Assembly (NCBI GenBank): GCA_030524525.1
Contig: JAUNGI010000006.1
Span: 29,307-93,306 of the forward strand
Origin: Lachnospiraceae bacterium
GTDB lineage: Bacteria; Bacillota; Clostridia; Lachnospirales; Lachnospiraceae
DNA length: 64,000 nt
Direction of reading: 5' to 3'
Shown here: piece by piece, positions 38,006-50,684 of the stretch
How positions within the stretch are numbered: the stretch's first letter is position 1
Layout of the letters: each line of letters begins with the position of its first letter
Notes under the pieces: model-generated
The model's database searches: none
Told to the model about the DNA's origin: nothing
What the model saw: only the letters and a program-made list of their open reading frames with translations
Position numbers and translations under genes: made by a program

Positions 38006-38042
38006 AACACGGCATGGACGCGGAATGCAGCCATGCCGTGTT
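38006..38042 (+). terminator. Intrinsic terminator after the YD-repeat lipoprotein
   Basis: AACACGGCATGG (38006-38017) pairs with CCATGCCGTGTT (38031-38042). The last bases overlap the -35 box of the next promoter. Confidence 0.8.
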
Positions 38043-38069
38043 GCATTTTATGGGGGAATCGTGTATAAT
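38041..38069 (+). promoter_or_regulatory. Promoter of the B12 operon leader
   Basis: TTGCAT (38041-38046), 17-base spacer and perfect TATAAT (38064-38069), placing the transcript start at about 38076. Confidence 0.75.
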
Positions 38070-38075
38070 TTCCGT

Positions 38076-38225
38076 GATTGAGTTCGGGACGTTTGGCTTC
38101 TCTTCGGAGAATAAGAGGGAAACCCGGTGAGAATCCGGTGCAACCACCATTACCGTATTTGGGTGCCGCCCTTAAGTCGGAATACTCGTTAAACGTCGCT
38201 TCCGGATTCAATGCACGACGCTTCC
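38076..38225 (+). promoter_or_regulatory. Cobalamin riboswitch (probable)
   Basis: The leader contains the cobalamin-riboswitch core signature GGGAAACCCGGTGAGAATCC (from 38118) followed by GGTGCAAC, and further on AAGTCGGAATACTCG (38174-38188), which resembles the B12 box. Spacing between the two fits the RNA class. The expected CCGCCACTG-like segment is only loosely matched (38141-38170), so this may be a variant. The downstream genes encode transcobalamin-like proteins and a CbrT-type ECF transporter, which supports the call. B12 binding would lower expression of the operon. Confidence 0.78.
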
Positions 38226-38258
38226 TTGGGTGCCAAGAAGGGAAAAGAGTGAAAGATC

Positions 38259-38525
38259 ATGCAGAACAATGCAAAGGAAACGGCGGTTCGGACAGCGGTC
38301 GAACTGCTGCGGAAAAAGGCGGAGGAGCTCTCCCGGCTTCCGAAGAAAACGGATTTTTCGGAGCGGGAGGTCATCATGGTGAAATCCTGTCTGGGGCCTT
38401 GGCCACGGGCGCTTGAGGCGGCCGGTCTGAAAGAGGTCAGCCAAGCCCGGACGGAGCGGCTTGCCCGGCGCAGGGAAAAGCGGATTCGTGCGAAGGTGAA
38501 ACGAAGGGTCGCAAAGAACGGATAA
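38259..38525 (+). CDS. Small basic protein with HNH-repeat-like segment
   Basis: The 88-residue ORF is the first after the riboswitch; the RBS is weak (GAGTGA). It is strongly basic at the C-terminus (RLARRREKRIRAKVKRR). The middle part, FSEREVIMVKSCLGPWPRALEAAGLKE in outline (key residues G-W-ALEAAGL), resembles the homing-endonuclease-associated repeat, a small DNA-binding unit that also occurs alone. There is no endonuclease domain. It could be a DNA-binding regulator of the B12 operon or a translated leader peptide. Real coding is likely from its length and codon use, but the function is unknown. Confidence 0.55.
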   Translation: MQNNAKETAVRTAVELLRKKAEELSRLPKKTDFSEREVIMVKSCLGPWPRALEAAGLKEVSQARTERLARRREKRIRAKVKRRVAKNG

Positions 38526-38579
38526 ATATGCGTGTCCGGGAAGACCCGCGCGTAGCAACGCGCAAAGGAGGAGATCACC

Positions 38580-39626
38580 ATGAAACAAATCAGGAGCAGG
38601 TTCCTTGCATGGCTGTGTATGGCGGCTTTGCTTTGCGGGATCACGACCGTGTCTGCGGCGGCTGACGGCAGCGCAGACGAACCGACGGGCTATGTGGTTG
38701 TCAGCATCGAGGCGGCGACGACGGGCTACGGTTATTTGCTGGAGCCGATCACGGTTCCCGTCTATGAGGGCGAAAACGCCGCGCAGGTGCTTGACCGGGT
38801 GCTGACGGAAAACGGCTTTTCCTATAAAGCCGGAGGAACGCTGACGGCAAGCTTTTATCTGTCCGCGATCGGGCAGGGAGGCGTTTTGCCAAGCGGAGCC
38901 GCGGCCGCGACGGGCGCGGGAGCGGAATGCACGCCGCCGAAGCGGCTTGGGGCGGAGATGCCGGAGATCATTCTGGAGAACATCAAGCCCACGCTGGAGG
39001 GCTACTACGAGATGGAGGTCGAGACTGCGGAGGACCTGAACGACGGCTGGACGCAGGGCGAAAACACGATCGGAGAATTTGACTATTGTCCGCTTTCGGG
39101 CTGGATGTGCTCGGTCAACAACGTGTTCCCGAGCGACTATCTCTCCGCGACCTCGCTGCAGGACGGAGACGTACTTCGCCTGCAATATACCATGGCTTGG
39201 GGAATGGATCTCGGCGCAGGCTGGGGCGACTTTTTCCCGACCGCAAACAAAACCGAGCTTTGCCAAGCGCTGGCGGCGGTCAACGGTGCGGAGGATGCGG
39301 ATGCAATGCTGGCGGACGACGCAGTTGCCGCAGCATATGAGGCGGCGGTTGCCGCCGGTCTGACGGTAGACGCCGGACAGGAGACCGTAGACGCCGCGGC
39401 TGCGGCGCTCAAGGAAGCGGTTGCGGCATATGAGGCGGCAAAGGAAGCCGTTACGCCGACTCCCACGCCGACCGAGGCGGTCGCGGAGCCGACGGAAGCG
39501 CCCGTAAAGCCGAGCGAGGATACGCCGGAGACCGGCGACGGTCAGACGACGCTGCTTCTGCTGGCGGCTGTTGCCTGCGGACTTGCGGCGGCGGGAAGCG
39601 CAGCCGCAAAGAAGTACGCGCGATAA
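38580..39626 (+). CDS. Cell-wall DUF4430 (transcobalamin C-terminal-like) protein
   Basis: ATG 38580 has AAAGGAGGAG upstream. The 348-residue protein has a signal peptide (to about residue 28) and a DUF4430-type beta domain (about 38-210). Recognisable landmarks are VPVYEGENAAQVLDRVL and YCPLSGWMCSVNNVFPSDYL, then LQDGDVLRLQYT. A helical Ala-rich spacer of about 65 residues, a Pro/Thr linker and a sorting tail (TPETGD, hydrophobic helix, AAKKYAR) follow. DUF4430 is the beta domain found at the C-terminus of animal transcobalamin and intrinsic factor. Under a cobalamin-riboswitch-like leader this is a good candidate for surface B12 binding. Direct binding is inferred, not shown. Confidence 0.85.
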   Translation: MKQIRSRFLAWLCMAALLCGITTVSAAADGSADEPTGYVVVSIEAATTGYGYLLEPITVPVYEGENAAQVLDRVLTENGFSYKAGGTLTASFYLSAIGQGGVLPSGAAAATGAGAECTPPKRLGAEMPEIILENIKPTLEGYYEMEVETAEDLNDGWTQGENTIGEFDYCPLSGWMCSVNNVFPSDYLSATSLQDGDVLRLQYTMAWGMDLGAGWGDFFPTANKTELCQALAAVNGAEDADAMLADDAVAAAYEAAVAAGLTVDAGQETVDAAAAALKEAVAAYEAAKEAVTPTPTPTEAVAEPTEAPVKPSEDTPETGDGQTTLLLLAAVACGLAAAGSAAAKKYAR

Positions 39627-39746
39627 AATTGGAAATTGAACGGGACGGTTCCTGCAGCGAACCGTCCGGGGAAGCGATGCGGATTCGGACAGAGTCCGCA
39701 TTGCTGTTACCATAGACATAAATTTGCTTTGCTGTATGAGGAAACT

Positions 39747-41579
39747 ATGAAACGGTTTTTGGCATTTTGCTTACTTGCGGTCGTGCTGGCAGCGGGGCTT
39801 TGGGGGCAGCCGGCGGTATGCGCCGAGGCGAAGACCGGCTCCGCTGCCGACTGGACGGCGGTGGCGCAGGGGATCGTCCGCTGGAAAAAGCTTGCGAACG
39901 GCTCGTCCGAGAGCGGTTATTTGCTGAACGACACGCACCTTGCCTTGGCGGGAAGCTCCGCGGGGGATTGGTACGCGTTTGCGATCAGCCGGTTTGGGGC
40001 GGCGGACAACCAGTCCGGCTATCTTGCCGTGCTGCGGGAATATGTGCAGAACAGCTACCGAAAAAGCGGCGGGCTGTCCGGAACCAAGGTGACGGAGTGG
40101 CACCGCATCGCGCTGACCGTGCTTGCCTGCGGGGGCGATCCGGAGCGCTTCGGGACCGACGCAAACGGCAGACCGATCAATTTGATCGCGGACGGAACCT
40201 ATAATCGGGGAAAAACCGCGTCGCTGGGAGCGCAGGGGCTGAACGGCTGGATCTGGGCGCTTCTGACGCTGGATTCCCGGAATTACGAGGTTCCGGACGG
40301 CGCGTATAACAGCCGGGAGGATATGATCGCCGCGATCCTTTCGTGCCAGCTTGCGGACGGCGGCTTCCCGCTTGCCGGAAGCAATGCGGATGTGGACATT
40401 ACGGCAATGGCGCTTCAGGCGCTTGCGCCATACTACAACAGTGGAACCGAATATACCTTTACCTTAAAGGAAACGAAGCGGCAGGTGACGCGCACGGTGC
40501 GGGAGGCGGCGGACGAGGCGCTTTCATGGCTTTCCGAACAGCAGCTTGCCGACGGAGCCTTCGCGTCCTATGGAACCGCCAACGCCAATACGACCTCGCA
40601 GGTCGTGGTCGCGCTCTGTTCGCTTGGAATTCATCCGGAGCGGGACGCGCGTTTTCGGAAAAACGGAAGCACCGTCATGGACGCGCTGCTCGGCTACCGG
40701 CAGGCGGACGGCGGCTTCTCCTATGCAAATAACGGCGGCTCCAATTCGATGGCGGGAGAACAGGCGCTCTATGCGATCACGGCGCTGCTTCGCTTGGAGC
40801 AGGGAAAGGGCAGGCTGTACGATCTGACCGACGTTAAAATTTCCGCTTCGGCTCCGACACCGACGCCGGGGAAAACGCCGTCCCCCACGGCCGTGCCGAC
40901 CGCGTCGCCCGGAAAGCGGCCCACCGCCGTACCGACGCCCACCGTCGCGTCTGCGCCGAGCGCCATGCCCGATCCGTCCGCGGCAGCTTCGCCGGAGCCA
41001 AGCGGCGAAATAACGCCGCAGCCGACCTCGGAGCCCTCCGGAACCGGCGCGCCCAACGGAACGCTTTCTCCGACTGCCGGAGGAGCGGCTGCGCCGGACG
41101 TTACCCCGCCGCTTCCTTCGGACGGCTCGACGGAGCTTCCGGAGAAGCTGACAACGGCGGATTATGCGGCGGTCGTCGCTCGGCTGGAGCAGCTTAAAAG
41201 CATGGACGGCTCGGCGGAGGGACGCGCCGAGGAGATCGAACGGCTGGAACGGGCGAAGGAGGAGCTTGAGGCGCTGCTTGCGGAGCTTGAGGCGTTGAAT
41301 CGGGAGTTGCCCGAAGCGCTGTATCCGCTGGACGAGCTGAGCTGGAGGGATCGCAAGGAGATCGAGGCATACTGGGAGCGCTATCAGGCGCTTGCGCAGG
41401 AGGACCGACAGCTGGTTCGCTGCGGAGAGGATCTGCGGAAGGCCAGAGCGCAGGTTCGCGCCTCCCTGCGGTGGCTTTGGCTCCGCGCGGGCGTCGGCGC
41501 GGCGGTCATAGCCGTGGCAGCGGCGCTTGCCGTTCGGGCAAGGCGGCGGAAGACCCGGCGGGAGGAAGAGGAAGGATGA
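39747..41579 (+). CDS. Prenyltransferase/squalene-cyclase-repeat surface protein (transcobalamin N-domain-like)
   Basis: ATG 39747 has GAGGA 4 bases upstream; the longer frame runs into hairpin-rich leader. The 610-residue protein has a signal peptide and an alpha/alpha-barrel domain (about 35-360) built of repeats containing QLADGGFPLAG, QLADGAFASYG and RQADGGFSYANNGG. A Pro/Thr/Ser linker (about 370-470), a coiled-coil Glu-rich region (about 475-570), one membrane helix (about 578-598) and a basic tail follow. Such barrels form the N-terminal half of transcobalamin and intrinsic factor. With DUF4430 proteins on both sides, the operon looks like a split transcobalamin. The linker suggests it reaches through the cell wall. 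Confidence 0.85.
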   Translation: MKRFLAFCLLAVVLAAGLWGQPAVCAEAKTGSAADWTAVAQGIVRWKKLANGSSESGYLLNDTHLALAGSSAGDWYAFAISRFGAADNQSGYLAVLREYVQNSYRKSGGLSGTKVTEWHRIALTVLACGGDPERFGTDANGRPINLIADGTYNRGKTASLGAQGLNGWIWALLTLDSRNYEVPDGAYNSREDMIAAILSCQLADGGFPLAGSNADVDITAMALQALAPYYNSGTEYTFTLKETKRQVTRTVREAADEALSWLSEQQLADGAFASYGTANANTTSQVVVALCSLGIHPERDARFRKNGSTVMDALLGYRQADGGFSYANNGGSNSMAGEQALYAITALLRLEQGKGRLYDLTDVKISASAPTPTPGKTPSPTAVPTASPGKRPTAVPTPTVASAPSAMPDPSAAASPEPSGEITPQPTSEPSGTGAPNGTLSPTAGGAAAPDVTPPLPSDGSTELPEKLTTADYAAVVARLEQLKSMDGSAEGRAEEIERLERAKEELEALLAELEALNRELPEALYPLDELSWRDRKEIEAYWERYQALAQEDRQLVRCGEDLRKARAQVRASLRWLWLRAGVGAAVIAVAAALAVRARRRKTRREEEEG

Positions 41580-42112
41580 AAAAAGATCTGCTGCTTGTTT
41601 TCTTTCTCGCGCTCCTGCTTGCGGTATTTATACAGGGCGTGGAGATCCAGTCGGTCGAGGAATATTACGACACGCATCCGGAGGAGATCCTTCCGGGCAG
41701 CGACACGGTAACGATTTCCATTCGCTGCGATACGATATACGAGCATTATGAGGAGCTGGACGAAAGCCTGAAAAAGGGCGGCTATCTTCCGCAGGACGGG
41801 ATCATTCTTCCCGAGACCGAGCTGATGCTTTTGGAGGGCGATACGGTCTTTGATCTGCTGGAGCGCGTCGTTCGCTGCCGCCGCATTCCGATGGAATATC
41901 AGGGAGCGGACGAAAACAGCTTTGGAAGCGTTTATGTGCAGGGCATCCAGTATCTGTACGAATTCTCCTGCGGGCCGCTTTCGGGCTGGATGTATGCGGT
42001 CAACGGGAAGATCGCCGACGTGGGCTGCTCTCGCTACGAACCGGAGCCGGGGGACGTGATCTGCTGGTTCTACACCTGTGAGCTGGGAAAGGACGTCGAA
42101 TGGGAAGAATGA
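41576..42112 (+). CDS. Membrane-anchored DUF4430 protein
   Basis: The ATG overlaps the stop of the barrel protein (ATGA), so translation is coupled. The 178-residue product has one N-terminal helix (LLLVFFLALLLAVFI) that lacks a clear cleavage site, and then a DUF4430 domain: LLEGDTVFDLLERVV, YLYEFSCGPLSGWMYAVNG and YEPEPGDVICWFYT. It is the second such domain in the operon and the likely membrane-proximal partner of the barrel. It overlaps the EcfT gene by 13 bases, linking surface capture to the ECF transporter. Confidence 0.85.
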   Translation: MKKDLLLVFFLALLLAVFIQGVEIQSVEEYYDTHPEEILPGSDTVTISIRCDTIYEHYEELDESLKKGGYLPQDGIILPETELMLLEGDTVFDLLERVVRCRRIPMEYQGADENSFGSVYVQGIQYLYEFSCGPLSGWMYAVNGKIADVGCSRYEPEPGDVICWFYTCELGKDVEWEE

Positions 42113-42987
42113 GAATACTGGAAACCTATCACCCGCTGGCGCTGCTTTGCTATTTTGCGGCGGTGGTGCTTACGGGCATGTTTGTCTGGCATCCGCTGAT
42201 CCTGCTGGAAGCCCTGCTGGGCGGGCTTTTGCTGCTGTCGATCTTGGAGCGCGGGGGAGCGTTTTTCTCCGATCTGGGCTTTTATGCGGCGCTGTTTCTG
42301 CTTGTGGCGGCGACCAATCCGCTGTTTTCGCACAACGGCGTTACGCCGCTGTTTTTCTTAAACGGCAATCCGGTGACGAAGGAGGCGCTGCTTTACGGCG
42401 CGGCGATCGGCTGTATGGTGGTGGGCGTTCTGCTCTGGTGCCGCTGCGGCGGTATGGTGTTTACAAGCGACAAGCTGATGTATCTGTTCGGGCGCGTCCT
42501 GCCGCGGCTCTCGCTTGTCTTTGCGATGGTGCTTCGCTTTGTGCCGCTGTTCCGGCAGAAGCGCCGTCAGGTCATGCAGGCGCAGAAGGGGATGGGGCTG
42601 TATTCGGCGGAAAGCCGTGCGGATCGGCTGCGCTCGGTCTTTCGGGTCTATTCGGCGCTGATCGGCTGGGCTCTGGAGCATGCGATGGAAACGGCGGGGA
42701 GCATGAAGGCAAGAGGCTACGGCCTGCCCGGACGAACGAATTTTCATCTGTATTTTTGGACGCGCCGAGACGTAACGCTGCTGGCGCTGACCGGCGTTCT
42801 GCTGCTGCCGACGCTTTTCGGGGCGGCTTCGGGAGCGCTTCGCTACGACTTTTATCCGGCGACGGACCCGCTTTGGGAGCGCTCGCTTGTCGCTTACGAG
42901 GCGGCGTTTCTGCTGCTGGCGCTGCTGCCGTTTTTTCTTGAGGGGAAGGAGAGTCTCAAGTGGAAATATTACGAGTCGAGGATCTGA
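42100..42987 (+). CDS. ecfT: ECF transporter transmembrane component EcfT
   Basis: ATG 42100 has GGAAAGGA 7 bases upstream; an ATG at 42109 overlapping the previous stop is an alternative. The 295-residue integral membrane protein starts near TYHPLALLCYFAAV, typical of EcfT. It has about six helices, and the cytoplasmic coupling region carries the Ala-Arg-Gly-type motif in GSMKARGYGLPGRTNF. EcfT ties the ATPase pair to the substrate-binding S component. The ATPase gene overlaps its 3' end. The neighbouring S component points to cobalamin as substrate. Confidence 0.9.
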   Translation: MGRMRILETYHPLALLCYFAAVVLTGMFVWHPLILLEALLGGLLLLSILERGGAFFSDLGFYAALFLLVAATNPLFSHNGVTPLFFLNGNPVTKEALLYGAAIGCMVVGVLLWCRCGGMVFTSDKLMYLFGRVLPRLSLVFAMVLRFVPLFRQKRRQVMQAQKGMGLYSAESRADRLRSVFRVYSALIGWALEHAMETAGSMKARGYGLPGRTNFHLYFWTRRDVTLLALTGVLLLPTLFGAASGALRYDFYPATDPLWERSLVAYEAAFLLLALLPFFLEGKESLKWKYYESRI

Positions 42988-44684
42988 GCTTTACATATCC
43001 GCAGCAGGAGAAGCCGGCGTTTCGTCAGGTTTCTCTTTCGGTCGAGGAAGGAAGCTTTCATGTGCTGTGCGGCCCTTCGGGGTGCGGAAAGACGACGCTG
43101 CTGCATGTTTTGAAGCGCGCCCTGCGGTCCAAGGGAACGCTGGCGGGGAAAGTGCTCTACTGCGGCAGAGAATTGGAGGGGCTTTCGGAGCGGGAGGCGG
43201 CGTCGGAGATCGGGCTGGTAAGACAGGACCCGGAGCAGCAGATCGTGACCGACAAGGTCTGGCACGAGCTGGCGTTCGGGCTGGAAAATCTGGGCGTTCC
43301 GCGGGAGAGCATTCGGCGGCGGGTCGGAGAGACGGCGAGCTTTTTCGGGATCCAGAACTGGTTCCGGCAGGAAACGGCGACGCTTTCCGGCGGACAGAAG
43401 CAGCTTTTGAATTTGGCGTCGGTCATGGCGATGCAGCCGAGACTGCTGCTGCTGGACGAGCCCACGTCGCAGCTGGACCCGATCGCGGCTTCCGACTTTT
43501 TGGCGGCGCTTTCCAGACTGCACCGGGAGCTTGGACTGACCGTTATTTTGGCGGAGCATCGGCTGGAGGAGGTGCTTCCGCTTTGCGACAGAGTCAGCGT
43601 GATGTACGAGGGAGGGCTGCTCTGTACCGGAGCGCCGAAGGAGGTCGGAAGATGGCTGACGGACGGGAGCCTGCCGTTGGAACGGGATGCGGCGGAACGG
43701 CTGTTTCTGGGCTTTCCCGCCGCCATGCGGCTGTATCGGAGGCTCGCGCCGGACGCCGGAATGTCCGGAGACATTCCGCTTTCGGTGCGGGAGGGACGCG
43801 CCTTTTTGCAGAGCGTCTGCCCGTCTCCGAAAAAGAAACGGTGGGAGACCACTCCTGTAGAATTCCCGGACGGGGAAGCCGCCGTCTCGCTGTCGGACGT
43901 CTGGTTCCGCTACGAGAAGTCCCTGCCGGACATCGTGCGCGGAGCCGGGCTGACCGTTGCCAAGGGAGAGTTTTATTGTCTGCTCGGCGGAAACGGAACG
44001 GGAAAAACGACGCTTCTGCACCTCATTGCCGGGCTGCGGCGGGCGTATCGGGGAACCGTCCGGATCTTCGGAGAAAAGCTGTCCTCGTATAAAAACAATG
44101 CGCTCTATCGGGGCGTGCTTTCGTATCTTCCGCAGGACGTGCGGACGGCGTTTGTGAAGGACACCGTAGAGGAGGATCTCCGGGCGCTGTTCGCGGCGCT
44201 TTCGCTGCCGAAGGAGACTTGGGAGGAGCGTCTGGCGGAGCTGGGGGAGCGGTTCGGAATTTCGGAGCTTTGGGGACGGCATCCATACGACCTGAGCGGC
44301 GGGGAGCAGCAAAAATGCGCGCTGGCAAAGCTGCTTGTGACGCGGCCGCGGCTCCTGCTGCTGGATGAGCCGACCAAGGGGCTGGACGCCCACGCCAAGA
44401 GGCAGCTCGGCGAACTGCTGAAAACGCTCTGCGGAGAGGGCATGACCGTGCTTTTGGTAACGCACGATATGGAATTTGCGGCGGGGTTTGCCGACCGATG
44501 CGGGCTGTTTTTTGACGGCGGTATTTTGGCGGAGGGGACTCCAAGCGAGTTCTTTGGAGAAAATCGGTTTTACACGACCGCCGCAAAGCGCATTTCCGAA
44601 GGTACCTTTCAGGGGACGGTCACCTGCGGGCAGGCGGCGGCGCTCTGGGAGGAGAACCGAAAGCTGCGGGGGAACGAAGAGTGA
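42960..44684 (+). CDS. ecfA: Fused ECF ATPase (EcfA-EcfA' in one chain)
   Basis: GTG 42960 follows AAGGAGA and overlaps ecfT by 28 bases. The 574-residue protein contains two complete ABC ATPase domains that are separate proteins in many Firmicutes. The first (about 1-230) has Walker A GPSGCGKTT (38-46), LSGGQKQLL and LLLLDEPTSQLDP. The second (about 300-530) has GGNGTGKTT, LSGGEQQKCALAK and LLLLDEPTKGLDA, with VTHD. All catalytic motifs look intact in both. It powers uptake by the ECF complex at the cytoplasmic face. Confidence 0.92.
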   Translation: MEILRVEDLSFTYPQQEKPAFRQVSLSVEEGSFHVLCGPSGCGKTTLLHVLKRALRSKGTLAGKVLYCGRELEGLSEREAASEIGLVRQDPEQQIVTDKVWHELAFGLENLGVPRESIRRRVGETASFFGIQNWFRQETATLSGGQKQLLNLASVMAMQPRLLLLDEPTSQLDPIAASDFLAALSRLHRELGLTVILAEHRLEEVLPLCDRVSVMYEGGLLCTGAPKEVGRWLTDGSLPLERDAAERLFLGFPAAMRLYRRLAPDAGMSGDIPLSVREGRAFLQSVCPSPKKKRWETTPVEFPDGEAAVSLSDVWFRYEKSLPDIVRGAGLTVAKGEFYCLLGGNGTGKTTLLHLIAGLRRAYRGTVRIFGEKLSSYKNNALYRGVLSYLPQDVRTAFVKDTVEEDLRALFAALSLPKETWEERLAELGERFGISELWGRHPYDLSGGEQQKCALAKLLVTRPRLLLLDEPTKGLDAHAKRQLGELLKTLCGEGMTVLLVTHDMEFAAGFADRCGLFFDGGILAEGTPSEFFGENRFYTTAAKRISEGTFQGTVTCGQAAALWEENRKLRGNEE

Positions 44685-45361
44685 AAAAACAATGGGTATC
44701 TTGGCTTGTTTTCTGCGGGCTGCTGCCGATGGCGGTGGTGCTTGGCACGGCGCTGTTTTCCGAAAAGCGCTATGCCGTTCTCTCGCTTGTGACGGCGGCG
44801 GGCGCGTGCGTCCCCTTTTTCCTCCGGTTTGAACGCCGGCGGCCTTCGACCCGCGAGCTTCTCGTGCTGGCGGTGATGGTCGCCATGACCGTGCTGGGAC
44901 GCGTCCTCTTTGCCCCGCTGCCCGGCTTTAAGCCGGTAACGGCGCTTGTGATCATAACGGCGCTGTCGTTCGGCGGGGAAATGGGCTTCCTGACGGGAGC
45001 CATGGGGGCGCTGATCTCGAATTTCTATTTCGGACAAGGGCCTTGGACGCCGTTTCAGATGCTTGTCTGGGGACTGCTCGGCTTTTTTGCGGGCGTTCTT
45101 GCGCCGCTTCTGAAAAGGAGCCGCGGGGCGCTTCTTGTTTACGGAGCGATTTCGGGAGCCGTATATTCGCTCCTGATGGATCTTTGGACCGTGCTTTGGT
45201 GGGACGGCGGCTTCAACGTGCCGCGCTATCTGGCGGCGCTTGCGACGGCGCTTCCCTATACGGTGCTGTATATGGTTTCCAACGTTGTGTTTTTGCTTGT
45301 GCTTGCGAAGCCGATCGGGAAAAAGCTGGAACGCATTCGAAGGAAGTATATGGAGGACTGA
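44681..45361 (+). CDS. cbrT: ECF transporter S component, CbrT-like (cobalamin)
   Basis: GTG 44681 overlaps the ATPase stop (GTGA). The 226-residue membrane protein has about six helices and the family landmarks LPGFKPVTALVIITALSFGG, NFYFGQGPWTPFQM and WGLLGFFAGVLAPLL. These match the substrate-binding S components related to CbrT, the B12-specific subunit characterised in Lactobacillus. With its own EcfT and EcfA in the same operon this is a group I-like ECF transporter. Cobalamin specificity rests on the family resemblance and on the riboswitch-like leader; a precursor such as cobinamide is also possible. Confidence 0.83.
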   Translation: MKKQWVSWLVFCGLLPMAVVLGTALFSEKRYAVLSLVTAAGACVPFFLRFERRRPSTRELLVLAVMVAMTVLGRVLFAPLPGFKPVTALVIITALSFGGEMGFLTGAMGALISNFYFGQGPWTPFQMLVWGLLGFFAGVLAPLLKRSRGALLVYGAISGAVYSLLMDLWTVLWWDGGFNVPRYLAALATALPYTVLYMVSNVVFLLVLAKPIGKKLERIRRKYMED

Positions 45362-45416: not shown

Positions 45417-46106
45417 ATGAAGGTATTGCTGGTGGAGGATGACGCGATGATCGCGTCGGGGCTTGCGTATGCCCTCGAACAGGAGGGCTATGAGGTGACG
45501 GCGGCGGGGAGCGTTTCGGAAGCGCTTGCCGCCTTGCGGCAGGGGGGCGTTTCGCTCGTGCTTTTGGACGTGGGACTGCCGGACGGGGACGGCTATGCGG
45601 TCTGCCGCGCGGCAAAGCAGGAACGGGATCTGCCGGTCATCTTTCTGACGGCGGTGGAGGACGAGGGGAACGTCGTAAAGGGGCTGGATATGGGAGCCGA
45701 CGATTACATTACGAAGCCGTTTCGCATTCGGGAGCTGCTTTCGCGCATCCGCTCGGTGATGCGGCGCTGCGAGGGCAGGACGGAGCGGGACGATCCGGCG
45801 GGAGAGCTTCGCTTCGGCGCGATCCGCATTTTTCCCCGGGAGGCAAAGGTATGGAAGGACGGACGGGACGTGCCGCTGACCGGCATGGAATACCGGCTCC
45901 TGCTCCGGCTCGCGCGGCATCCGGGACAGGTCTTTTCGCGGAACCAGCTGTTGGAAGGTATCTGGGACGTGTCCGGGGATTTTGTCAACGACAATACGCT
46001 TACGGTATATATCAAGCGTCTTCGGGAAAAGCTGGAGGACGATCCGGCGCATCCGGAGCTGATCCGAACGGTACGGGGGCTCGGCTATTGTCTGGGCGGG
46101 AAATAA
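45417..46106 (+). CDS. OmpR/PhoB-family response regulator of the second Bce-like module
   Basis: ATG 45417 follows AAAGGAGA. The 229-residue protein has a receiver domain with EDD (7-9), phospho-acceptor Asp51 (VLLDVGLPDGDG), LTAVED and Lys in TKPFRIRELL, then a winged helix ending RGLGYCLGGK. It begins 55 bases after the B12 transporter with no obvious terminator, so some read-through is possible. The partner kinase starts 10 bases downstream. The direct-repeat array at 47132-47168, upstream of the transporter genes, is its probable operator. Confidence 0.92.
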   Translation: MKVLLVEDDAMIASGLAYALEQEGYEVTAAGSVSEALAALRQGGVSLVLLDVGLPDGDGYAVCRAAKQERDLPVIFLTAVEDEGNVVKGLDMGADDYITKPFRIRELLSRIRSVMRRCEGRTERDDPAGELRFGAIRIFPREAKVWKDGRDVPLTGMEYRLLLRLARHPGQVFSRNQLLEGIWDVSGDFVNDNTLTVYIKRLREKLEDDPAHPELIRTVRGLGYCLGGK

Positions 46107-46116
46107 GGAGGCGCGC

Positions 46117-47112
46117 ATGTTAAAAAACCGGGAAATCCAAGGAATGCTCCTTTTGTCCCTGCTTCTGCTCCTGCTGTCGCTGACGCTGCTTTGGCTGACC
46201 CCGCTGCCGCCGCTTGTTTTGCTGCTCCTTCTTTGGGGGAGCCTGAACGGAGTTTTTCTTGTATATACGAGGCGGCGGTACCGGAAGATCGGCGAGCTGA
46301 CCGAATATCTCTTCCGGCTCCAAACGCAGACGCGCGCGCTCGATATCCGGGACAATGCGGAAGGTGAGCTCAGCATCCTGAAAAACGAGATCTACAAGCT
46401 GTCCGAGAAGCTTCTGCGGCAGACGGAGCTTTTGCAGGAGGATAAGCGGTTTCTGGCAAAGTCGCTCTCGGATATTTCGCATCAGCTGAAAACGCCCCTG
46501 ACCTCGCTGCTGATGATGGTGGAGCTGCTGTCGGAGGAGGGACTGCCGGAGGAAAAGCGCCGCGAATTTCTGGAGAACGTGCGGAGCGGTCTGGAACGTA
46601 TGGAGTGGCTCGTCCTTTCGCTTCTGAAGCTGTCCCGGCTCGACGCGGACGCCGTGGAGTTTCAGCGGGAGCCCCTTGACGCGTACGAGCTTTTGCTGGA
46701 AGCCGCCGCGCCGATTTCGTATCTGCCGGAGGCAAAGGGCGTCCGGCTGCTGCTGGAGCCGAGCGAGGAACCGGTGACGCTGCTGGGCGACCGGCAGTGG
46801 CTTTCGGAGGCGCTCGGAAATCTGCTGAAAAACTGTATGGAGCATACGCCGGAGGGCGGCAGCGTCACGCTGACCTACGGAGGGAACAACCTGTATACCG
46901 AGCTGCGGATCGCCGATACCGGAGAGGGCATTGCGCCCGACGATCTGCCGCACATTTTCGAACGCTTTTACCGGGGAAAAAATTCGGGCAGCCAGAGCGT
47001 GGGCATCGGGCTGGCGCTGGCAAGGGAGATCGTTTCCCGGCAGAAGGGAAAGATCACCGTGGAGAGCGCGCCCGGAAAAGGGACGGCGTTTACCGTTCGG
47101 ATCTACCGCTGA
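46117..47112 (+). CDS. Intramembrane-sensing histidine kinase, Bce-like
   Basis: The 331-residue kinase has two closely spaced N-terminal helices (about 9-27 and 32-50) with almost no extracytoplasmic loop. It continues with a short linker and a HisKA domain with His122 in SDISHQLKTPLTS. The ATPase domain has LLKNCMEHTPEGG, ADTGEGIA, FERFYRG and GIGLALAREIV. This loopless input is typical of Bce-type kinases, which read transport activity of their partner permease rather than binding the drug. The RBS is AAGGAGG. The gene order regulator, kinase, ATPase, permease matches bceRSAB. Confidence 0.92.
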   Translation: MLKNREIQGMLLLSLLLLLLSLTLLWLTPLPPLVLLLLLWGSLNGVFLVYTRRRYRKIGELTEYLFRLQTQTRALDIRDNAEGELSILKNEIYKLSEKLLRQTELLQEDKRFLAKSLSDISHQLKTPLTSLLMMVELLSEEGLPEEKRREFLENVRSGLERMEWLVLSLLKLSRLDADAVEFQREPLDAYELLLEAAAPISYLPEAKGVRLLLEPSEEPVTLLGDRQWLSEALGNLLKNCMEHTPEGGSVTLTYGGNNLYTELRIADTGEGIAPDDLPHIFERFYRGKNSGSQSVGIGLALAREIVSRQKGKITVESAPGKGTAFTVRIYR

Positions 47113-47131
47113 GACAGACGCAAAGCGTTTG

Positions 47132-47168
47132 TGACAAAATTGTCATAAAAAATGTCACCGGACTGTCA
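47132..47168 (+). promoter_or_regulatory. Candidate response-regulator operator before the transporter genes
   Basis: TGACAAAATTGTCA (47132-47145) is an inverted repeat of TGACAA. TGTCA recurs in the same orientation at 47141, 47153 and 47164, that is at roughly helical spacing. It lies 50 bases before the ABC ATPase start, where a Bce-type regulator would bind. Confidence 0.5.
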
Positions 47169-47217
47169 TTTGGAACGGATATTCTTTGGGTATCTTAGAA
47201 AGCGGAGGGGTTCGATC

Positions 47218-47928
47218 ATGGAACTTTTGAAAGTAGAACATCTGACCAAGGAGTACGGAAAGGGCGACGTCAAGGTGCGGGCGCTCGACGACGTGTCCTT
47301 CTCGGTGCAGAAAGGAGAATTTGTGGCGATCATCGGGCCCAGCGGTTCCGGAAAATCGACGCTGCTGCACCTGATCGGCGGCGTTGACCGGCCCACGTCC
47401 GGAAGGGTCTGGATCGACAATACCGATATTTATTCGCTGGACGAAACGAAGCTCGCCATTTTCCGAAGAAGGCAGATCGGGCTGATCTATCAGTTTTACA
47501 ATCTGATCCCGGTGCTGACGGTGCGGGAAAACATTACGCTGCCGTTGGAGCTGGACGGAAGAAAGGTCGAGGAGGCGTACTTTCAGGAGGTCGTGCGGAC
47601 GCTCGGACTGGAGGATCGGCTCAAGCATCTGCCGAACGAGCTTTCGGGCGGTCAGCAGCAGAGAGTCTCCATCGGACGCGCGCTGCTGCCGAATCCGGCG
47701 CTGATCCTTGCCGACGAGCCCACGGGAAATCTCGACCGGAAGACCGGCGAGGACATTATGTCGCTTTTGAAGCTGTCGCACCGGCGTTATCAGCAGACGC
47801 TGATCGTCATTACGCACGACGAAAGCATCGCCTTGCAGGCCGATCGGATGATCGCCATTGAAGACGGACGCATCACGCGGGACGAGACGATCCGCAGCGT
47901 CCATCCGTCGGGAGGTGTACGGGAATGA
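47218..47928 (+). CDS. ABC transporter ATP-binding protein, MacB/BceA type
   Basis: ATG 47218 follows GGAGGGG. The 236-residue ATPase has Walker A GPSGSGKST, Q-loop YQFYNLIP, signature LSGGQQQRVSIGRALL, Walker B LILADEPTGNLD and VITHDES. Its stop overlaps the permease start (ATGA). With the FtsX-type permease it should form a resistance or detoxification pump for cell-wall-active peptides. Expression is probably induced by the upstream two-component system through the repeats at 47132-47168. Confidence 0.93.
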   Translation: MELLKVEHLTKEYGKGDVKVRALDDVSFSVQKGEFVAIIGPSGSGKSTLLHLIGGVDRPTSGRVWIDNTDIYSLDETKLAIFRRRQIGLIYQFYNLIPVLTVRENITLPLELDGRKVEEAYFQEVVRTLGLEDRLKHLPNELSGGQQQRVSIGRALLPNPALILADEPTGNLDRKTGEDIMSLLKLSHRRYQQTLIVITHDESIALQADRMIAIEDGRITRDETIRSVHPSGGVRE

Positions 47929-50684
47929 GCCATATTATGAACCGACTGACCCGGCAGCATATGGCGGCAAGCCGCCGTCGGACCCTTGTGACAATCCTCG
48001 GCGTGATCGTGTCCGTGGCGATGATCGCCGCGGTTTCCATCGGCGCGGCTTCGTTCAAAAACATGTTCCAGCAGATGGCAATGCAGGACAGCGGCTACTG
48101 GCACGCGATGCTTTCCGACATCACGGCGGAGCAGGCCGCCCGGCTGGAAAAGGACGACAACGTCGAGAATTTGTTTTTAAGCAGGGAGCTGATGTACGGC
48201 AGGCTTGCCGACGGCATGATCCAAAACGAGGAAAAACCGTATCTTTATGTCATGGAATACGATAAGAAGGCGTTTGAGGGAATGTCGCTCAAGCTTGTGG
48301 AGGGACGCTTTGCGGAAAACGCGCAGGAGCTTGTCATTCCAAGGCACCTGCTGACAAACGGCAAGGCGGAGCTGGCGGTGGGCGATACGCTGACCGTTAC
48401 GCTCGGACGCCGCTATGTGGAGTATGCCGGGGCGGAGAGAGAATACTTGGGGCAGCGCGACGCCTACCTTGGAGGAACGGAGACGGACGAATCGGGCGAG
48501 GAAGCCCCCGCCGAGCAGTTTGAGGAGGCGGAAACGCGCACGTATACGATCGTCGGCATCGTGGAACGTCCGGGCAATTCACAGGAGGGCTATTATGCGC
48601 CCGGCTATTCCGCCTACACCTTTCTGGATTCCGACGCGCTTTCCCCGGAGGAAACGGTCAACGCAAGGCTCTTTCTGCACAAGGTCAATACGAAGCTTTA
48701 CGATCAGGTGAAGGAGCTGGCGGCGGACGCCGGGGTCCCCACGGAGGGGCTGTCCTACAACGACGACGTGCTGATGTATTACGGCGTGTCCGGGTATCGG
48801 GATTTTGTATGGACGATACGGGCGATGGAGCTGATCCTTATCGCCATCATTATGGTGGGCAGCGTTTCTCTGATCTACAACTCGTTCGCGATCTCGATCA
48901 CCGAGCGCAGCAAGCAGTTCGGAATGCTCTCCAGCGTGGGAGCCACGCGAAAGCAGAAGCGCAACGCGGTGCTCTACGAGGGCGGCGTGATCGGCGGGAT
49001 CGCCGTGCCGCTCGGCCTGCTGTTCGGCTGTCTCGGAATGGCGGTGACGTTTCGGATCGTCCGTTCTCTGCTCTCCTCGGCAAACGGCGCCGAGGTTCCG
49101 CTCCGCATCTGCGTTTCGCTTCCCACGCTTTTGGTGGCGACCGGCTTTTCGGTGCTGACGATCTTTCTTTCGGCGTATCTGCCCGCAAGGAGGGCGTCGC
49201 GGATCTCCGCCATGGAAGCCATTCGGCAGACGCAGGATATTCGCCTGACCCGGAAGGCGGTCAGGACGCCGCGCATCGTCCGGTGGCTGTTCGGGCTTCC
49301 CGGCGAGATCGCGCTGAAAAATCTGAAGCGAAACCGCAAGCGCTACCGCGCGATGGTGTTCTCCCTGCTTGTCAGTCTGGTGCTGTTTACCACCGTCGGC
49401 TCGTATGTGTATTATGTGACCAACATGTATATGATGTCCGCCGACGGCAGTCTGCCCGCCATCAGCGTTTACTTTGACACACAGACGGACGACCCGGAGC
49501 TGTTTTCTCAGCTGTGCGCCGTAAACGGCATCCGGCAGGGCGGCGCATACGATCTCTGCACGATGTCTCTGGAAATTTCCTCTGCGGTCGCGAAGCCGCT
49601 GCTGACCGAGGAGGCGGTCGAAATGCGCTGCAGACAGTTCCGGCGATGGGGCTGGGAGGAGGAACGGATCCGCGAGTACCGCAAGAAGATGGAGAGCGGA
49701 AATACGGGTTTGGATACGGGCGTGAGCATCGAACTGATCCTGATGGACGACGACGCCTATGCCGCCTATGCGGAGAAGGTCGGCGCAAAGGAGGCGCCGG
49801 AGGGAATGTTCGGCGGCATTCTGGTGAACTGGGGCAGGACAAATTCGGCCGGCGCCCTGATGGAAGCTCCCATGCTTTCCGTTTCCGCAGGGGAAACCTT
49901 ACGGCTTGCCTATGTGGAGCGGGAATATGAATATGACGAGAAGGAAGGAACGGAACGGGAACGGATCGTGCTCTCGCAGGAGATCCCCGTTTATCTGGCC
50001 GCCGAAACAAAGGAGCTTCCGTTCGGCTCGACCTATTTCTCCGTTACCGGCAGCGTGGGGCTGTATCTTCCGAAAAGTCAGTGGAAGGAGCTGGGCGGGC
50101 AGCTTCCGGAGGCGCTTCGCGACAGCGTGATCACCAACTATTATTTCTCGGTGGAGGAAGACGAGGACGAGGCGGTAGAGGAGGAAATGGAGACGATCCT
50201 GACGGCTCGGAACGCAGGGGAATATTCCCTGTATAACCGCATCGCGTCGGCGCGGGCGGACCGGCAGATGCTGCTGGCGATTTCGATCTTTGCCTACGGC
50301 TTTATTGCGCTGATCTCGCTGATCTGCGTCGCCAACCTCTGCAACACGATCTCCACGAGCTTTGCGCTCCGAAGACGCGAGTTCGCCATGCTCAAGAGCA
50401 TCGGTATGGAGCCAAGGGTGTTCCGGCGGATGATCCGCTTTGAAAGTCTGCTTTACGGCGTAAAGGCGCTGCTCTACGGAATTCCGCTGAGCCTGCTGCT
50501 GACCTACGGGCTTTACCGTACGTTTACGCACGGGGATATCTATACGCCGTTCACGCTGCCGTGGCGGATCTACGGCATCGGCGTTGCCGCGGTTCTGCTG
50601 GTCGTCTTTATCGCAATGAGCTATTCGAGTCGGAAGATCAAGGACGAATCCATTGTCGAAGGCTTGAAATCGGAAATCGAGTAA
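47925..50684 (+). CDS. FtsX-family ABC permease, Bce/Vex-like
   Basis: The 919-residue permease is translationally coupled to its ATPase. It has a first helix (about 20-42), an extracytoplasmic domain (about 45-285), three helices with the FtsX pattern (about 290-425; TERSKQFGMLSSVGATRKQK), and a second half with a further helix near 475. A large second extracytoplasmic domain (about 500-770) and a final FtsX set (about 775-905; RRREFAMLKSIGMEP) complete it. Two-FtsX permeases of this size differ from BceB, whose single large loop lies between helices 7 and 8, so drug specificity cannot be transferred. A strong terminator follows. Confidence 0.9.
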   Translation: MSHIMNRLTRQHMAASRRRTLVTILGVIVSVAMIAAVSIGAASFKNMFQQMAMQDSGYWHAMLSDITAEQAARLEKDDNVENLFLSRELMYGRLADGMIQNEEKPYLYVMEYDKKAFEGMSLKLVEGRFAENAQELVIPRHLLTNGKAELAVGDTLTVTLGRRYVEYAGAEREYLGQRDAYLGGTETDESGEEAPAEQFEEAETRTYTIVGIVERPGNSQEGYYAPGYSAYTFLDSDALSPEETVNARLFLHKVNTKLYDQVKELAADAGVPTEGLSYNDDVLMYYGVSGYRDFVWTIRAMELILIAIIMVGSVSLIYNSFAISITERSKQFGMLSSVGATRKQKRNAVLYEGGVIGGIAVPLGLLFGCLGMAVTFRIVRSLLSSANGAEVPLRICVSLPTLLVATGFSVLTIFLSAYLPARRASRISAMEAIRQTQDIRLTRKAVRTPRIVRWLFGLPGEIALKNLKRNRKRYRAMVFSLLVSLVLFTTVGSYVYYVTNMYMMSADGSLPAISVYFDTQTDDPELFSQLCAVNGIRQGGAYDLCTMSLEISSAVAKPLLTEEAVEMRCRQFRRWGWEEERIREYRKKMESGNTGLDTGVSIELILMDDDAYAAYAEKVGAKEAPEGMFGGILVNWGRTNSAGALMEAPMLSVSAGETLRLAYVEREYEYDEKEGTERERIVLSQEIPVYLAAETKELPFGSTYFSVTGSVGLYLPKSQWKELGGQLPEALRDSVITNYYFSVEEDEDEAVEEEMETILTARNAGEYSLYNRIASARADRQMLLAISIFAYGFIALISLICVANLCNTISTSFALRRREFAMLKSIGMEPRVFRRMIRFESLLYGVKALLYGIPLSLLLTYGLYRTFTHGDIYTPFTLPWRIYGIGVAAVLLVVFIAMSYSSRKIKDESIVEGLKSEIE

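Follow-up and report, generated by a model that had tools for sequence, protein, structure and literature searches.

In a 64,000-nucleotide stretch of a Lachnospiraceae bacterium (assembly GCA_030524525.1, contig JAUNGI010000006.1, positions 29,307 to 93,306; hereafter the window, whose own numbering is used), we analyzed a tight operon in which a cobalamin riboswitch precedes three surface-protein genes and the genes of an energy-coupling factor (ECF) transporter (Table 1). The host genome is a 2.65-Mb draft that is 97% complete. In a covariance-model scan, the leader matched the cobalamin riboswitch family RF00174 with a score that marginally clears the gathering score, and this was the only RF00174 match found in the whole genome. 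Its core of about 40 bases is the same in congener G016 and near-identical in congener G006, at the same position before the same genes. All genes of the operon lie on the same strand. A gap of 120 bases separates the gene of the wall-type DUF4430 protein from the toroid gene; from the membrane DUF4430 gene onward, each gene overlaps its predecessor (by 4, 13, 28 and 4 bases), the start codon of the membrane DUF4430 gene overlapping the stop codon of the toroid gene. The original prediction, made from the letters alone, had placed a cobalamin riboswitch at the head of an operon with these gene families and had named an ECF transporter with a CbrT-type S component; the scan, the family searches and the overlaps bear this out, except that the prediction had passed over the HNH_repeat gene.

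Table 1. Features of the operon in the window, and the divergent leaders of eight congeners (locus coordinates).
Feature	Location	Strand	Evidence
Cobalamin riboswitch aptamer	38077-38207	+	RF00174, 32.3 bits (gathering score 31.5), E 1.9e-4
HNH_repeat mini-protein, 88 aa	38259-38525	+	PF18780, 37.1 bits (cut-off 26)
Wall-type surface protein with DUF4430 (beta) domain, residues 166-204	38580-39626	+	PF14478, 22.1 bits (cut-off 23.8)
Alpha/alpha-toroid surface protein	39747-41579	+	PF00432 (Prenyltrans), 30.5 bits (cut-off 26.5)
Toroid protein, C-terminal membrane helix, residues 578-596	41478-41534	+	Hydropathy scan
Membrane-anchored DUF4430 (beta-domain) protein	41576-42112	+	PF14478, 55.3 bits (cut-off 23.8)
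DUF4430 protein, N-terminal membrane helix, residues 6-24	41591-41647	+	Hydropathy scan
EcfT transmembrane component (CbiQ/EcfT)	42100-42987	+	PF02361, 38.3 bits (cut-off 25)
Fused EcfA-EcfA' ATPases	42960-44684	+	Two ABC_tran stretches; TIGR04520, 333 bits (cut-off 315)
CbrT-like ECF S component	44681-45361	+	PF07155, 40.7 bits (cut-off 26.7)
Divergent leader	L036:14745-14858
Divergent leader	L037:14191-14298
Divergent leader	L038:14735-14847
Divergent leader	L040:4088-4195
Divergent leader	L041:3251-3360
Divergent leader	L043:6952-7062
Divergent leader	L044:14740-14852
Divergent leader	L046:3337-3451

What might this transporter carry? EcfT, two EcfA domains and an S component occur together in the operon. 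The best solved relative of the S component is chain A of 6fnp (ECF-CbrT), at E 4.9e-8 with the single sequence and 4.8e-18 with a profile; in the profile search the next match was 4hzu (E 3.4e-5), no other S component appeared among the seven matches up to E 10, and the protein was nearer to CbrT than to the other solved S components. CbrT is reported to transport both cobalamin and cobinamide (PMC5997447). The host genome contains one strong B12-binding domain, located within a MetH-like protein that we read as a B12-type methionine synthase, and a search of the draft for CbiC returned no match. Therefore, the host probably cannot make a corrinoid and needs a supply, a judgment that rests on one gene in a 97%-complete draft. 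Three lines thus point to a corrinoid as the ligand: the riboswitch, the kinship of the S component with CbrT and the apparent need of the host.

The three surface proteins differ in their predicted anchoring. The wall-type DUF4430 protein has a signal peptide and a C-terminal hydrophobic stretch, and its tail, PETGD followed by hydrophobic residues and KK, looks sortase-like; the DUF4430 domain of its counterpart in G016 scores 29.9 bits, over the Pfam cut-off. The toroid protein consists of a signal peptide, the toroid, a Pro-rich linker, a C-terminal membrane helix and a basic tail (helices were located by hydropathy). Its toroid is 64% identical to that of G006, and an alignment of 30 diverse members has 18 invariant columns. 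The membrane DUF4430 protein shares 45-65% identity with 19 relatives. Across the whole genome, DUF4430 gave only two matches, both inside the operon.

Association with cobalamin riboswitches and ECF transporters

How general is this combination? Among 61 genomes, that of the host and 60 related to it, 37 had an RF00174 match, 32 had a DUF4430 match and 18 had both; every riboswitch in these 18 genomes (18/18, two of them under the gathering score) had a DUF4430 gene at a distance of 0.5 to 6.2 kb. For a second survey, a collection of species genomes was scanned with a toroid/DUF4430 alignment (A1), and the best 80 of 434 relatives were retained. These loci were picked by protein and not by riboswitch, and they form a best-match sample that is skewed to close relatives; the sample includes Desulfosporosinus sp. 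PR, Anaerovorax sp. IOR16, Anaerosalibacter bizertensis, Clostridium cadaveris and Caryophanon tenue. EcfT, EcfA-A' and the same S family accompanied the pair in 61 of the 80 loci. RF00174 gave 149 matches at E up to 0.001. They came from 56 genomes of the 80, in 49 of which the gathering score was exceeded, and in 44 of these 56 at least one riboswitch lay inside the fetched locus (six under the gathering score); in locus L117, whose fetched piece stops at a contig end, it lies at 298-503 in contig coordinates. Because the fetched loci make up about 0.7 percent of the genomes, by our arithmetic only about one of the 149 matches would be expected inside them by chance. This recurrent company of toroid/DUF4430 genes, the S family and cobalamin riboswitches supports the original prediction. 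Two outcomes that would have refuted it, a leader with no cobalamin-family hit and DUF4430/barrel genes that generally stand beside other ECF S components, did not occur.

In eight congeners that carry the operon, the loci were without an RF00174 match, and a direct, lenient RF00174 scan of one such leader (L037) also gave none. All eight have a common conserved leader before EcfT (Table 1). A covariance model built from those eight alone found 17 further places at E below 0.001 in 97 loci, a set that leaves out L092, L116, L119 and L125, and 16 of these 17 overlap RF00174 matches (one under the gathering score), with starts no more than 2 bases apart. Therefore, the leader of the eight congeners is most likely a strongly diverged cobalamin riboswitch, and its ligand preference may have shifted. 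Of 22 genomes of the genus, 10 had the divergent leader with a score of at least 91 bits, eight of these having supplied the model, and 10 others had an RF00174 match. A reading of the divergent leader as a tRNA was rejected, as ARAGORN found no tRNA gene in the eight loci. We also noted a c-di-GMP-I (cyclic di-GMP) riboswitch (L036:7885-7994, 64.3 bits) directly 5′ of a 1295-aa frame that adjoins the B12 operon of that congener.

Fused and split toroid-DUF4430 pairs

Examination of 101 loci, the window included, yielded 94 with a readable membrane DUF4430 unit. The toroid and DUF4430 are fused into one protein in 56 of them and encoded separately in 38 (among distinct cases, 53 fused and 38 split, 91 in all); three loci (L116, L119 and L125), whose toroids duplicate those of L041, L036 and L046, were counted among the 94 and the 80. 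In the fused proteins, a helical ring, classed as a toroid by PF00432, precedes the beta domain, and at least two hydrophobic helices lie between the two (56/56). In the split pairs, the toroid protein ends in a helix and short tail in 33 of 38 cases, the five without this helix being L039, L045, L047, L077 and L106, and the DUF4430 protein begins with a helix in all 38; the two genes are no more than 60 bases apart in 31 of 38. Because two interdomain helices in the fused form correspond to one helix on each half in the split form, the two forms amount to the same arrangement: both domains outside, two helices tying them to the membrane, and a break in the inner loop. The proposal in the original prediction that a two-domain binder has here been split is supported by these counts of fusion and of helices shared between the halves. 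In a quick tree of 91 toroids, from which the three repeats were left out and in which 33 of 88 inner branches had support under 80, the fused or split label changes three times; the window falls among split pairs and its sister G006 (100 in the SH-aLRT, the Shimodaira-Hasegawa-like approximate likelihood-ratio test) is fused.

Further surface proteins accompany related operons. Giant toroid surface proteins of 1235 to 2605 aa are encoded at or near the operon head (L034:2564-10381, L052:4398-8105 and L057:1660-7854), as if providing an outer toroid partner for the wall-type DUF4430 protein. A secreted protein of 225-290 aa is encoded before the fused protein or between it and the S component (L094:8062-8865, L095:6700-7566, L118:9266-9943 and L037:9796-10632). 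Pfam searches of the secreted protein gave sub-threshold matches only, none in L094, L095 and L118 to DUF4430, so we assign it to no family; by eye, a DUF4430-like stretch can be seen in these three loci, and the protein is perhaps a diverged outer beta-domain protein.

The HNH_repeat gene, the single match to its family found in the genome, lies between the riboswitch and the first DUF4430 gene. Of 100 related loci, 35 encode a small HNH_repeat protein that contains LGPWPRALE, often directly 3′ of the riboswitch (e.g., L076:8961-9257, L086:8856-9188 and L093:8766-9062). On the same strand, 3′ of the operon, we read frames resembling a response regulator, a histidine kinase, an ABC ATPase and an FtsX-like permease (45419-50684), which look like a separate module.

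A candidate corrinoid clamp and its alternatives

From the riboswitch, the gene families and their order, the membrane anchors, the equivalence of fused and split forms and the association across genomes, all read from sequence, we consider it probable that this is a corrinoid-uptake operon in which a membrane-tethered, transcobalamin-like clamp feeds its own ECF importer; from them we infer cobalamin as the ligand, a clamp, an order of binding and a hand-over to the importer. Animal transcobalamin, intrinsic factor and haptocorrin likewise have a helical ring followed by a beta domain, cobalamin binding to the beta domain of transcobalamin first and the alpha domain then closing (PMC11107200). 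DUF4430 is reported to be at the C-terminus of the animal TCN proteins (PMC4350170), and the alpha and beta domains of human transcobalamin (TC-alpha and TC-beta), when expressed apart, form a complex only if cobalamin is present (PMC5599065). Such cobalamin-driven assembly with beta-first binding would suit a pair that is split by nature and tied to the membrane. In the system that we propose, the wall-type DUF4430 protein would act as an outer catcher, further out; the split pair would close on cobalamin at the membrane face, beside the S component; the CbrT-type S component with its own EcfT/EcfA-A' module would pump cobalamin in; and cobalamin would turn the operon down through the riboswitch.

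A number of observations weigh against this proposal. PF01122, the family of the animal alpha domain, gave no significant match in 20 genomes (best score, 8.2 bits), in the 30 members of the toroid alignment or in 8 additional proteins, which were mostly large surface proteins. Searched against the PDB, toroid profiles returned squalene, squalene-hopene and related cyclases and no transcobalamin; a profile of the membrane DUF4430 protein (A4) returned neither a transcobalamin nor a notable relative; and of two wall-type DUF4430 profiles, A10 returned nothing and A9 reached TC-2 at E 1.6, which is rank 11 of 13 and not significant. In the window itself, the wall-type DUF4430 domain stays under the Pfam cut-off, the membrane DUF4430 protein has no direct sequence match to solved transcobalamins, and the ATPase pair scores 248.7 bits with the cobalt-ATPase model TIGR01166, over its cut-off of 211.8. 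The association is likewise incomplete. In the first survey, 19 of the 37 riboswitch genomes have no DUF4430 match, and 14 of the 32 DUF4430 genomes have no RF00174 match; 10 of these 14 have the divergent (R1-type) leader, and no leader was found in the other four, three of which are outside the genus and were not covered by the search with the divergent-leader model. In the second, 24 of the 80 genomes have no RF00174 match (three of them have the divergent leader), and the full ECF set is absent from 19 of the 80 loci. Several of these 19 are cut by contig ends; L107 is incomplete though uncut on both sides, and L058, L117 and L126, which are cut upstream, have no ECF gene in about 7 to 10 kb downstream. 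A locus of Caryophanon tenue (L084:11692-18671) encodes a split pair, EcfT and EcfA-A' with no adjoining S component.

Because no significant PF01122 match was found and the direct sequence links of DUF4430 to solved transcobalamins are weak, we suggest that the bacterial pair works like a transcobalamin, and do not claim that it is one. The original prediction, which likened the pair to the two halves of transcobalamin, thus stands in part: the riboswitch, the CbrT-type ECF transporter, the association and the split are supported, but the searches did not detect the toroid as belonging to the family of the animal alpha domain.

Two weak hints point the other way, both in a 1205-aa surface protein of Caryophanon tenue with the architecture DUF4430-DUF4430-toroid-DUF4430-SLH, its toroid read by eye (L195:3961-7578, minus strand). 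Its gene follows a cobalamin riboswitch (98.6 bits) by about 160 bases and precedes a second toroid/DUF4430/EcfT/EcfA set. The second DUF4430 of this protein matches human transcobalamin-1 weakly (E 0.0077) over the beta domain, a hint that the two wall-type DUF4430 profiles failed to reinforce. Two PF01122 scores arose in the 20 genomes, at 8.2 and 6.6 bits; neither is significant, and Pfam did not return PF01122 for the protein itself, but both fall inside this toroid, a placing that we find suggestive.

Could corrinoid uptake here proceed with no clamp? The DUF4430 domain might bind the corrinoid by itself, and the toroid might serve as a scaffold for docking or for binding the wall. The toroid has no sequence link to the animal alpha domain, the operon includes a DUF4430 protein with no toroid, and isolated transcobalamin domains can bind cobalamin, some organisms having a beta domain alone (PMC11107200). 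This explanation nevertheless seems to us rather unlikely, given that the toroid and DUF4430 are fused in more than half of the loci and closely spaced in most split pairs, and that invariant columns persist over diverse toroids. Cobalamin riboswitches control the uptake of cobalt and of precursors too. The operon might be regulated by B12 and yet import either a precursor, for example cobinamide or a lower ligand, or cobalt, as the cobinamide transport of CbrT and the TIGR01166 score would allow. We regard this as improbable: the S component is closest to CbrT, EcfT falls far under the cut-off of the CbiQ model (15.6 bits against 111.8), the ATPases score over the cut-off of the general ECF model TIGR04520 as well, and, because no CbiC match was found in the genome, import of cobalt for synthesis is unlikely. 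A third reading, in which the toroid protein has nothing to do with B12 and is a secreted enzyme of the terpene-cyclase-like kind, we consider very improbable; squalene-hopene and related cyclases are indeed its best profile matches in the PDB, but its recurrent company of DUF4430, a CbrT-type ECF transporter and a riboswitch, its fusion to DUF4430 and its surface location all argue otherwise.

Known systems and biological meaning

The proposed membrane-tethered clamp and importer share features with several known systems and differ from each. Unlike the animal carriers, the bacterial pair is tied by two membrane helices or consists of two proteins, its toroid is not recognized by PF01122, and it is encoded beside its own importer. 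ECF-CbrT of Lactobacillus delbrueckii (6FNP) is a B12 ECF transporter and contains the closest S component by profile; CbrT draws on an ECF module that also serves other S components, and the excerpted account of it names no surface partner (PMC5997447), whereas the operon in the window has its own ECF module and three surface proteins. The Bacteroides lipoproteins BtuG and BtuH are alike in role, capturing B12 at the surface for a transporter (PMC10404256), but they feed a TonB-dependent outer-membrane channel, in contrast to the wall and membrane anchors and ECF importer found here. In the isd locus of Staphylococcus lugdunensis, the heme importer LhaSTA is likewise an ECF system among wall-anchored receptors; it works without the Isd surface proteins, however, and takes heme, not B12 (PMC7299338). 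Judged by titles and the beginnings of abstracts, none of the papers listed in our literature searches, which excluded preprints and most subscription journals, describes a DUF4430/toroid and ECF-CbrT system for B12.

We would raise three wider consequences tentatively, as ideas that we ourselves find doubtful: that an external two-part clamp can feed ECF importers, against the rule that the S component alone binds the substrate; that the two-domain design of the animal carriers came from, or is shared with, a bacterial system; and that cutting or joining the cytoplasmic loop of the helical hairpin switches between one-protein and two-protein forms. Being split by nature, the pair lends itself readily to a test of cobalamin-driven assembly with two soluble halves. 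Identifying how B12 is transported has been described as an open problem for numerous human gut genomes (PMC6593275), and this operon provides a concrete candidate across many Bacillota. If our proposal is true, bacteria with Gram-positive-type anchors would have a counterpart of BtuG and BtuH, the importer would possibly be the first of the ECF class to have surface partners of its own, and the transcobalamin and intrinsic factor of animals would gain bacterial relatives.

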